Source: an uncultured Gammaproteobacteria bacterium (GTDB lineage: Bacteria; Pseudomonadota; Gammaproteobacteria; GCA-002705445; GCA-002716945). From it: a DNA stretch of 64,000 nucleotides. Shown here piece after piece: positions 4,619 through 49,325 of this stretch. A program made the translations under genes and the position numbers. Where the stretch lies: NCBI GenBank assembly GCA_902521725.1, contig CABYTF010000001.1, positions 186,001 to 250,000 on the forward strand. The letters are read 5' to 3'. The notes under the pieces were generated by a model. That model searched no databases, was not told the origin of the DNA, and saw only the letters and a list, made by a program, of their open reading frames with translations. How positions within the stretch are numbered: the first letter of the stretch is position 1; every line of letters begins with the position of its first letter.

Positions 4619-4669
4619 TTTATCTTTATATTGATTAATTATAGCTAAGAAGTTAATCTTTACGAACTC

Positions 4670-4837
4670 ATGAAGAAGTATCTTTGTTTAATATGTGGCC
4701 TTATCTACGATGAAGAAAAAGGATGGCCCGAGGATGACATTCAGCCAGGGACAAAATGGGAGGATGTTCCTGATACTTGGATGTGCCCTGACTGTGGTGC
4801 AACCAAATCAGACTTTGACATGATTGAAATTACATAG
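4670..4837 (+). CDS. Rubredoxin
   Basis: A short gene of 55 residues starting ATG at 4670 and ending TAG at 4837. The protein has two CxxC knuckles, C6-L-I-C9 and C39-P-D-C42, and the rubredoxin body [17 protein letters not shown]. The four cysteines would bind one iron, making a small cytoplasmic electron carrier. It is divergent from thiE and followed three bases later by the MATE gene, so it may be cotranscribed with the exporter. The redox partner is not identifiable here. Length and spacing of all four ligands are typical, so identification is firm although function is general. Confidence 0.95.
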
Positions 4838-4840
4838 CAT

Positions 4841-30887: not shown

Positions 30888-31115
30888 CTATTTACCCTTT
30901 AATTTCTTCTCTATTTCATCAAGTTTACTTCTAGTTTTTTTAAGCACAGCACTTTGAGTATCAAATTCTTCCCTGGTGACTACATTAATTTTTCTCAAAT
31001 AGTCATTCAGCAATATTTTAAGATTATCTTTAAAATCGTCTTTTATTCCCTCAGTACCAGTAGGTAAGAGGCTTGCTATGTTCTCAATTAGCTCTCTGAT
31101 TTTAGGTGTTGCCAT
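30888..31115 (-). CDS. ubiK: Ubiquinone biosynthesis accessory factor UbiK (YqiC/BMFP)
   Basis: A 75-residue BMFP-family protein. The C-terminal coiled coil NVVTREEFDTQSAVLKKTRSKLDEIEKKL is the clear family signature (shown here in full only as the range 46-74), and the N-terminal half is amphipathic. UbiK helps UbiJ organise the aerobic ubiquinone complex. GGAG eight bases before the ATG at 31115 supports that start over an upstream ATG at 31133. An NtrC palindrome begins 18 bases upstream. The neighbourhood ubiK next to glnK-amtB is known from Pseudomonas. Confidence 0.9.
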   Translation of the reverse strand: MATPKIRELIENIASLLPTGTEGIKDDFKDNLKILLNDYLRKINVVTREEFDTQSAVLKKTRSKLDEIEKKLKGK

Positions 31116-31132
31116 TATTTGCACTCCAAACA

Positions 31133-31149
31133 TGCACTAATTATGTGCA
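31133..31149. promoter_or_regulatory. NtrC-binding palindrome
   Basis: The 17-base palindrome TGCACTAATTATGTGCA matches the NtrC consensus TGCAC-N7-GTGCA perfectly in both half-sites. It lies about 135 bases upstream of the -24 element of a sigma-54 promoter, a normal enhancer distance. Binding is inferred. Confidence 0.8.
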
Positions 31150-31283
31150 ATATATAAAATATGTCTAAAAAACGCTTAAATTGTTAATGTTTTATTACAA
31201 AAACCTTCCGATAAAATCCAGTATGCTGTATTATTATAACCGCAATATTATTGATCGGAGAACATTTTTCATAATATTCGATT

Positions 31284-31299
31284 TGGCATAGTTTATGCA
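31284..31299 (+). promoter_or_regulatory. Sigma-54 promoter of the barrel-glnK-amtB operon
   Basis: TGGCATAGTTTATGCA fits the sigma-54 consensus TGGCAC-N5-TTGCA, with GG at 31285-31286 and GC at 31297-31298 separated by exactly ten bases. The expected start is near 31310, about 88 bases before the first ATG. Nitrogen control through NtrC is the natural reading. Confidence 0.8.
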
Positions 31300-31397
31300 T
31301 ATCTATAACCGATAGCTCTACTTTTGTCATAGATGAATGTCGACTATCACTTAATAAACTAAAAAATATAACCATTTTACGAAAAGGGAGAAAATAA

Positions 31398-32084
31398 ATG
31401 AGAAAATTGATTAAATCATCACTTTCATTAGCTGTAGCTGCGCTGATGTCAGTTTCTATGTTGTCTCATGCAGGCGATGCTGTTGCTGAAGATCATAGTT
31501 CTGCTGTTAGCTACAACGTAGGCTATATGTCAGAGTATTGGTACAGAGGTGTCTATCAATCAGAATCCTCAGTCAGCTTCGGAGCAGACATGGAGATGGG
31601 CAACATGTACATTGGCACATGGTGGGCAGACGTAGATGAAGGTGTTGAATACGACATATACGCTGGATTTAATTTTGAGCTAATGGGACTACCTATGTAC
31701 TTAGGTGCAACAGGATACTATTACTCTGATAACTTTGATGGCGATTACGAAGAATTGAATACTGGTGTTGACCTTGGGTTCGCAGCTATTGATTATGCTT
31801 TTGCTGGCGAATACGAGGCTTTAACAACCGGAGTAAAATCTGATTACGAGCATTTCACAATTACTGCTCCACTACCAATGACATCATTTGATTTCACATA
31901 TGGTACTTTCCAGGACGAACTGACTGGACATTACTATGAAATTTCATATGGTGCGACTGTAAGTGGTGTAGATGTTGGAGTTGTACTTGGTAGAAACTCA
32001 GATGACTCAACAACCAGCAGTGATAAGGCTGGTAAAGAAAACGATACAACTTACGCTACATTTAGCCTAGGGTATAGTTTCTAA
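31398..32084 (+). CDS. Outer-membrane beta-barrel protein, TIGR02001-like
   Basis: A 228-residue secreted protein. The signal peptide is cleaved near SHAGDA (residues 24-27). The mature part alternates aromatic and small residues as in beta-barrels: YNVGYMSEYWYRGVYQ at the start and TYATFSLGYSF with a terminal phenylalanine, the outer-membrane targeting signature. It resembles the TIGR02001 family of unknown function. It is acidic, rich in tyrosine and aspartate, and has GGGAG before the ATG. As the first gene of an NtrC/sigma-54 transcript with glnK and amtB, it may let ammonium or another nitrogen compound through the outer membrane; this role is inferred. Confidence 0.85.
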   Translation: MRKLIKSSLSLAVAALMSVSMLSHAGDAVAEDHSSAVSYNVGYMSEYWYRGVYQSESSVSFGADMEMGNMYIGTWWADVDEGVEYDIYAGFNFELMGLPMYLGATGYYYSDNFDGDYEELNTGVDLGFAAIDYAFAGEYEALTTGVKSDYEHFTITAPLPMTSFDFTYGTFQDELTGHYYEISYGATVSGVDVGVVLGRNSDDSTTSSDKAGKENDTTYATFSLGYSF

Positions 32085-32112: not shown

Positions 32113-32463
<351 letters not shown>

Positions 32464-32490: not shown

Positions 32491-33768
32491 ATGGAAGCTT
32501 TAGAAGGTAAAGTCATAGAACTTGCTTATGCTTTAGACACATTCTACTTCTTAGTCATGGGAGCCTTTGTCATGTGGATGGCAGCTGGGTTCACTATGCT
32601 GGAATCTGGACTTGTCAGAGCAAAAAATACAGCTGAAATTCTTACAAAAAATATATCCTTGTATTCGATAGCCGTCATAATGTATATGATCGTCGGATAC
32701 AATTTAATGTACCCAGGTGGTGGAACAGGTGTCATACCTGAGTTAGCATTTTTCTTGGGTGAAGATAATACAGCAGAGGCTGCAATAGCAAGTGGAGGAG
32801 ATATATATTATTCTGGTATTTCAGATCATTTCTTCCAAGTTGTGTTTGTTGCGACAGCCTGTTCAATCATATCAGGTGCTGTAGCTGAGAGAATGAAATT
32901 ATGGCCATTTCTACTATTTTGTGTAGTTATGACCAGTATCATTTATCCAGTCCAAGGTTATTGGAAATGGGGCGGTGGATTCTTAGATGAAGCTGGTTTC
33001 TCAGATTTTGCTGGGTCTGGCGTAGTACATCTTTGTGGCGCAGTAGCTGCATTAGCTGGAGTAATAGTACTAGGTGCTAGAAAAGGAAAATACGAAGGCG
33101 GAAAAGTCAATGCAATGCCTGGTGCTAATCTACCATTAGCAACACTAGGTACTTTCATATTATGGCTTGGATGGTTTGGTTTTAACGGTGGATCCGAATT
33201 AATCATATCTAACGTTGCGGAAGCAAATGCTGTATCAATGGTATTTGTAAATACTAACCTTGCTGCTGCTGGTGGCGTGATGGGTGCGTTGATTCTGTCT
33301 AAAGTTATGTTTGGTAAGTCTGATCTTACTATGGCACTAAACGGCGCTATTGGTGGTTTGGTCTCAATTACAGCTGAGCCTCTAGCACCAACTCCAGGTC
33401 TTGGATTAATCATTGGCTTTATCGGTGGTATTATAGTCGTATTGTCAATTATTATGCTAGACAAAATGAAGATTGATGATCCTGTCGGTGCGATTTCCGC
33501 TCACGGGACATGTGGTATCTGGGGATTACTCGCGGTTACATTAACTGGCGGTTCACTAGGTGCACAAATCTATGGCGCATTAATGATCTTCTTATGGACA
33601 TTTATAGTGAGCCTAATTTTCTGGTCTATCATTAAGATGTTCTTTGGATTAAGAGTAACAGAAGAAGAAGAAACTGATGGTGTTGATATATCTGAGTGTG
33701 GTTTAGAAGCATACCCAGAATTCAGCAAAGCATCAGGGGCTAAACCTTCAGTTTATCCTGAGCAATAA
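32491..33768 (+). CDS. amtB: Ammonium transporter
   Basis: A 425-residue Amt channel with eleven or so membrane helices. The twin pore histidines are visible: H180 in GSGVVHLCG and H338 in SAHGTCGIWG. The start AAGFTMLESGLVRAKN is typical, as is DDPVGAISAHG. The C-terminal cytoplasmic tail, with FFGLRVTEEEETDG, is the GlnK-interacting region. It conducts ammonium into the cytoplasm. AGGAG precedes the ATG. It is the last gene of the nitrogen-regulated operon and is followed by a hairpin terminator. Confidence 0.97.
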   Translation: MEALEGKVIELAYALDTFYFLVMGAFVMWMAAGFTMLESGLVRAKNTAEILTKNISLYSIAVIMYMIVGYNLMYPGGGTGVIPELAFFLGEDNTAEAAIASGGDIYYSGISDHFFQVVFVATACSIISGAVAERMKLWPFLLFCVVMTSIIYPVQGYWKWGGGFLDEAGFSDFAGSGVVHLCGAVAALAGVIVLGARKGKYEGGKVNAMPGANLPLATLGTFILWLGWFGFNGGSELIISNVAEANAVSMVFVNTNLAAAGGVMGALILSKVMFGKSDLTMALNGAIGGLVSITAEPLAPTPGLGLIIGFIGGIIVVLSIIMLDKMKIDDPVGAISAHGTCGIWGLLAVTLTGGSLGAQIYGALMIFLWTFIVSLIFWSIIKMFFGLRVTEEEETDGVDISECGLEAYPEFSKASGAKPSVYPEQ

Positions 33769-39502: not shown

Positions 39503-39537
39503 TTATCCACAGATTCTGTGGATAAATCTGTGTATAA
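39503..39537. promoter_or_regulatory. Cluster of three DnaA boxes
   Basis: TTATCCACA (39503-39511, plus), its exact reverse complement TGTGGATAA (39517-39525) and TGTGTATAA (39529-39537, minus, reads TTATACACA) all fit TTATNCACA. They lie within 35 bases of non-coding DNA upstream of priA. DnaA control of priA, a DnaA-reactivating or titrating site, or part of an origin are possible roles; none is proven. Confidence 0.65.
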
Positions 39538-39545
39538 ATCTCAAA

Positions 39546-39564
39546 TAAAATGATTATCATTATA
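39546..39564. promoter_or_regulatory. Fur-like palindrome
   Basis: TAAAATGATTATCATTATA matches 15 of 19 positions of the Fur consensus, with the central ATGAT/ATCAT halves intact. It lies just beyond the DnaA boxes, 215 bases before the HNH gene and 830 bases before hemH. In AT-rich DNA, chance occurrence is possible. Confidence 0.4.
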
Positions 39565-39778
39565 TTCTGTAATGTGTTTGTCACATTGTTCAATTTATAA
39601 TCAAAACTGTATTACCATATATTTCAATGATTTATGTATCAAATAACTAAATTGATTTATATTTTGATACTTAAATATATGAATGTCTACAATCAATGTA
39701 CAAGAGAGTTGCCTGTTAATAAATTCATCAAAATAGTGCACACATCAAATATTTGTTATATAAATTTAGGATTCTTTA

Positions 39779-47099: not shown

Positions 47100-47325
47100 G
47101 GCTCTCGATTATTTGCCATATCCTGGTGAAATGGGAAAAAAGATTCAGGAAAACATTTCAAGAGAGGGTTGGGAGTTATGGGTTAACCACCAAACTATGC
47201 TTATCAATGAGATGAGATTAACTCCAGTAGATCCAAAAGCAAGGAAATTTTTGGAGGAAGAAATGGAAAAATTTTTCTTTGGCGATGGTTCCCAAGCTCC
47301 ACAGGGTTTTGTTCCAGAAAAATAA
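47059..47325 (+). CDS. yggX: YggX family Fe(II)-trafficking protein
   Basis: An 88-residue protein with the YggX pattern: conserved cysteine in MKKIMCKKLKKEAEALD, YPGEMGKKIQENISREGW and HQTMLINEMRL. Members protect iron-sulfur clusters against oxidation and may handle iron. The family alignment fixes the start at 47059, which lies inside mutY, giving a 41-base overlap in another frame. The mutY-yggX pair is conserved; MutY itself has an iron-sulfur cluster. The tRNA-Phe gene starts six bases after the stop. Confidence 0.95.
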   Translation: MKKIMCKKLKKEAEALDYLPYPGEMGKKIQENISREGWELWVNHQTMLINEMRLTPVDPKARKFLEEEMEKFFFGDGSQAPQGFVPEK

Positions 47326-47330
47326 CACTT

Positions 47331-48995: not shown

Positions 48996-49325
48996 ATGTC
49001 AGATTATCTCCCAAAAAATGCTAAATTCAGTCTTGGTCAAATCGTTTATCACTCAAAGTTTAAATATAGAGGAGTTATAGTGGATGCTGATCCGAACTTT
49101 CAGGGTACAGATGAATGGTATGATTCTGTTGCTAAATCCAAACCGGATAAAAATAAGCCTTGGTACCATGTTTTAGTCCACGGTCAAGGAAATGAAACCT
49201 ATGTTGCAGAGTCAAATTTAACCACTGATGACAATATAGATCCAGTAGATCACCCGTTTGTCGATATATTTTTCTATGAATATGATAATAGTGGTCAGTA
49301 CTCACTTAAACAAACATTCAATTAA
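48996..49325 (+). CDS. hspQ: Heat shock protein HspQ
   Basis: A 109-residue HspQ/YccV-family protein. Family pattern: KFSLGQIVYHSKFKYRGVIVDADPNF, then KPWYHVLVHGQGNETYVAESNL and a C-terminal HPFVDIFF. HspQ is a small hemimethylated-DNA-binding-like fold protein that in E. coli acts as a specificity factor for Lon protease. A promoter lies directly before the start. The TerB-like gene begins two bases after its stop. Confidence 0.93.
   Translation: MSDYLPKNAKFSLGQIVYHSKFKYRGVIVDADPNFQGTDEWYDSVAKSKPDKNKPWYHVLVHGQGNETYVAESNLTTDDNIDPVDHPFVDIFFYEYDNSGQYSLKQTFN

Follow-up and report, generated by a model that had tools for sequence, protein, structure and literature searches.

The barrel-glnK-amtB locus and its control region

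The assembly of this uncultured gammaproteobacterium comprises 970,813 bases (0.97 Mb) and is 92% complete. The window, i.e. the whole 64-kb stretch of DNA that was analysed, carries an operon of three genes, for an outer-membrane barrel, PII and ammonium transport, divergent from a ubiK-like gene. The features of the locus are as follows:

30888-31115, - strand: ubiK-like gene of the BMFP family (PF04380), divergent from the operon
31120-31136: second NtrC site, imperfect (9/10), overlapping the perfect site with TGCA in common
31133-31149: perfect NtrC palindrome TGCAC-N7-GTGCA, TGCACTAATTATGTGCA (10/10), about 160-175 bp upstream of the predicted start
31284-31299, + strand: sigma-54 -24/-12 element TGGCATAGTTTATGCA, matching the GG/GC consensus
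31310-31397, + strand: predicted 5' leader of 88 nt; strong conservation within the genus, hairpin predicted near 31314-31351
31398-32084, + strand: outer-membrane barrel, TorF-type putative porin (Gcw_chp); PF09694 above and TIGR02001 just below cut-off
32125-32463, + strand: glnK, the sole PII gene found, with the T-loop Tyr51 kept
32491-33768, + strand: amtB ammonium transporter, marine subtype (PF00909; TIGR03644 at 640 bits for a cut-off of 514)

For ubiK the ATG at 31115, which has a GGAG motif 8 bases ahead, is more likely to be the start than that at 31133, so that the gap between the divergent genes would measure about 282 bp. This agrees with the length of about 280 bases given in the preliminary description, whereas the statement that this is one of only two long gaps in the window was only nearly right. 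The window has five gaps longer than 200 bp when ORFs of 110 aa or more are considered. Two of them are not empty, that with 48996-49325 containing a YccV/HspQ-like gene and that with 4619-4840 a rubredoxin-like small frame (recognised by eye); three remain, 31134-31397, 39511-39778 and 47100-47330. Flanked by priA and a gene for an HNH endonuclease, the gap 39511-39778 has three DnaA-box-like 9-mers within 35 bp at its edge (39503-39537), and a palindrome resembling a Fur box, ATGATTATCAT, was recognised in it by eye.

Both control elements are present as first described. The GG (31285-31286) and GC (31297-31298) of the sigma-54 element are 12 bases apart, the spacing that such boxes require, and from this box a transcription start is predicted at about 31310. 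The perfect palindrome stands about 143 bp upstream of the -24 element, which is an enhancer distance, and has no other exact match in the entire genome. By order-2 Markov simulation of the 64-kb window (300 simulated windows), 0.017 exact palindromes and 0.25 exact sigma-54 boxes are expected per 64 kb; a palindrome and a box 50-250 bp apart occurred in none of the 300.

Genome-wide there are ten exact sigma-54 boxes, two of which belong to glnA and to the barrel-glnK-amtB operon. Five others (L108, L110, L111, L113 and L115) are all inside likely genes, one (L107) overlaps an ORF of doubtful status, one (L112) lies where a small ORF begins, and one (L114) is intergenic but on a strand that points away from the flanking genes shown. 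Among the candidate boxes read, only the glnA box and that of the present operon have both NtrC-like sites nearby and a fitting gene. The further near-matches to the palindrome that were inspected (L005, L008, L009 and L010) fall inside ORFs. The other expected target, glnA-ntrBC, has the same sigma-54 box; its NtrC sites reach 8/10 at best.

Regulators and conservation of the sites in the order

RpoN, NtrB and NtrC were identified by the NCBIfam equivalog cut-offs TIGR02395, NF008293 and TIGR01818. The genome has one rpoN, adjoining PTS-Ntr genes, whose product scores 382.7 bits (cut-off 277) and contains the ARRT RpoN box. An ntrB-ntrC pair is located behind glnA, with scores of 249.6 for NtrB (cut-off 240) and 618 for NtrC (cut-off 558.6). 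The absence of rpoN and ntrC had been named beforehand as an observation that would refute the promoter; all three genes are present.

We compared 25 genomes of the order, namely this one (G000) and 24 relatives, family-level and order-level searches giving the identical set. Their completeness ranges from 68 to 100%; 11 of the 25 reach 90% or more, among them G014 (99%) and G017 (100%). No account of nitrogen regulation in this order was found in the literature. rpoN was detected in 24/25 genomes. Our genome has one strong sigma-54 activator, and none of the relatives has more than one; a second, weak PF00158 match in an 875-aa frame was set aside, its size and score looking like those of a ClpB-type AAA protein. 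The sigma-54 contact motif of NtrC has the form GSFTGA within this genus, whereas most of the other genera have GAFTGA.

A glnK match was obtained in 19 genomes belonging to six genera. The sigma-54 box lies upstream of the operon in all 19, and an NtrC site of at least 9/10 in 17 (the exceptions are G009 and G010), so both elements are conserved in relatives, which the preliminary description had named as an outcome that would support its reading. Within the genus, the spacer between them diverges while both its ends are kept. At glnA-ntrBC the box is found in 21/21 loci, with NtrC-like sites of at least 8/10 in all. In G015, G017 and G018, which represent three genera, amtB is missing from the operon and a convergent speE comes directly after glnK; the barrel gene, glnK, the sigma-54 box and the NtrC site all remain. 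These amtB-less loci are L146 (G015), L144/L197 (G017) and L141 (G018), and in G017 two tandem barrel genes precede glnK.

Could the palindrome and the box be chance matches or inherited relics, the operon being driven by a sigma-70 promoter that escaped notice? This AT-rich DNA is full of sigma-54-like matches with one mismatch, and some sigma-70-like hexamers do occur near the operon. But the sigma-70-like matches in the region number 10 for 12.0 expected, with none on the + strand within the gap; moreover both elements are kept across six genera while the rest of the spacer diverges, and a genome of 1 Mb has retained rpoN and ntrBC. We consider this explanation very improbable.

The NtrC sites could also serve chiefly the divergent ubiK, for example by repressing it, with control of barrel-glnK-amtB being secondary. 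They overlap the start region and Shine-Dalgarno of ubiK: the likely Shine-Dalgarno, GGAG, falls within the 9/10 site, where it appears in reverse complement as CTCC (31124-31127), so that the conservation of this site may partly belong to ubiK. Furthermore, a sigma-70-like match for ubiK on the - strand (31167-31140) overlaps the palindrome, hence NtrC binding might also affect ubiK. The sigma-54 box, in contrast, is directed at the barrel gene and is conserved in 19/19 loci, and the operon of G017 keeps the box and an NtrC site with no ubiK neighbour in the stretch read around it. A principal role at ubiK therefore appears unlikely, though less so than relic sites; a dual role, at ubiK and at the operon, is possible.

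A functional NtrC-activated sigma-54 promoter very probably drives barrel-glnK-amtB, as the preliminary description had proposed from the letters of the locus. The presence of rpoN and ntrBC, the conservation of the sites and the box of glnA-ntrBC all support this reading. The NtrC sites of no more than 8/10 at glnA, and the two relatives (G009 and G010) in which this locus has no site of 9/10, count against it.

The predicted leader is, within the genus, more conserved than the spacer between the NtrC sites and the box, and the hairpin predicted in it recurs in several genera. An Rfam scan of the window returned two tRNAs only, the leader matching neither a known riboswitch nor a glnA RNA motif, and RNAalifold gave no consensus structure for 12 leaders aligned by sequence. 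With the hairpin set by hand in seven leaders from two genera, 87.5% of the cells are paired, vs 32-39% when it is slid. Covariation is not demonstrated, because just one pair of the hairpin changed on both sides. The modelled hairpin is suggestive only; the leader could be an RNA control element.

A probable nitrogen circuit with unmodified PII

On the E. coli paradigm, NtrB would phosphorylate NtrC under nitrogen shortage. NtrC~P would then bind the paired sites at 31120-31149, oligomerise and, by DNA looping, activate the sigma-54 RNA polymerase at 31284-31299, so that transcripts would begin near 31310. Being the sole activator, NtrC would serve glnA-ntrBC as well. Since glnK sits behind the NtrC promoter, the PII made on starvation would provide negative feedback and shut AmtB once nitrogen returns.

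The features of an enteric-type Ntr cascade are found here in part. The PII T-loop Tyr51 is present, while GlnD/GlnE, Tyr397 of GlnA and a pair of PII proteins (GlnB and GlnK) were not found. PF08335, which covers both GlnD and GlnE and is the single domain model applied to these incomplete genomes, matches none of the 25, although 11 of them are at least 90% complete. Positive controls (E. coli, Caulobacter and Corynebacterium) do match. At the GlnA position that aligns with the adenylylation site of Salmonella, Tyr397, 19 of the 20 genomes read have Phe and G016 alone keeps a Tyr; the motif MDKNLY of Salmonella becomes MDKDLF and similar in the 19. We found one PII gene in our genome and, with a GlnK query, no second intact PII in the relatives.

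With neither GlnD nor GlnE detected, NtrB would most likely receive its signal from the one PII, which would read 2-oxoglutarate, ATP and ADP directly, without uridylylation. Experiments in E. coli have established that GlnK associates with AmtB, and departs from it, according to nitrogen status even when its uridylylation is prevented (PMC4274968), which makes such a mode feasible for AmtB. We infer that unmodified PII may also control NtrB.

An ordinary enteric circuit with uridylylation would follow if GlnD and/or GlnE were present and either too divergent for PF08335 or located in assembly gaps. The use of a single domain model on genomes 68-100% complete leaves some room for this, and Tyr51 of PII is conserved in 18/18 proteins; Tyr51 is also kept in lineages without uridylylation. 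However, PF08335 has no match even in G014 and G017, rpoN, NtrC and PII score strongly in the same genomes, and the adenylylation Tyr of GlnA is lost in 19/20. Hidden modifying enzymes are in our view rather unlikely, if somewhat less so than a primary role of the sites at ubiK.

A circuit lacking both GlnD and GlnE is the probable state in this genome. The same reading, with the same good but not full confidence, extends to the whole order: RpoN would be kept for one activator, NtrC, in a minimal Ntr circuit with neither uridylylation of PII nor adenylylation of GlnA. Its parts would be RpoN, NtrBC, one PII, glnA and barrel-glnK with or without amtB, and NtrB would stand under an unmodified PII that senses 2-oxoglutarate and energy charge alone.

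Comparison with known systems

In E. coli, NtrC sites of the TGCAC-N7-GTGCA type lie upstream of a TGGCA-type sigma-54 box at glnK-amtB and glnAp2. The present promoters resemble these in the types of sites and in their targets, glnK-amtB and glnA-ntrBC. They differ in that a barrel gene heads the operon, behind a conserved leader of 88 nt, and that the whole genome has one PII and one sigma-54 activator, with GlnD/GlnE undetected.

The arrangement of genes recurs in other gammaproteobacteria, where a divergent ubiK, a TorF-type barrel, glnK and amtB are likewise found together (for example at loci L030, L034, L043, L053 and L088). Many such loci have NtrC sites and few match the strict sigma-54 pattern used; unlike this order, they belong mostly to non-streamlined lineages. 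Among 80 named loci with AmtB, glnK is near amtB in 77, a ubiK match occurs in 29, a strong NtrC site in 26 and a barrel match in 18, counts which make the arrangement an ordinary one for gammaproteobacteria. The promoter itself is textbook, another example of a known gammaproteobacterial arrangement.

The wider circuit matters because a review describes glnD as ubiquitous among proteobacteria (PMC4285133), and because whether PII has to be modified is considered an open question (PMC4274968). A published parallel is SAR11 IIIa/LD12. In the part of the source available, no NtrBC/RpoN-controlled glnK operon is described for this group, in contrast to the present order; like it, these proteobacteria are aquatic and streamlined and have a PII gene, glnB, but no glnD (PMC10030771). 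In the lineage studied here NtrBC, RpoN and PII are kept, both modifying enzymes are apparently lost and the adenylylation Tyr of GlnA is replaced. If this reading is true, the order would provide a natural test that ligand binding by PII alone suffices to run an Ntr system.
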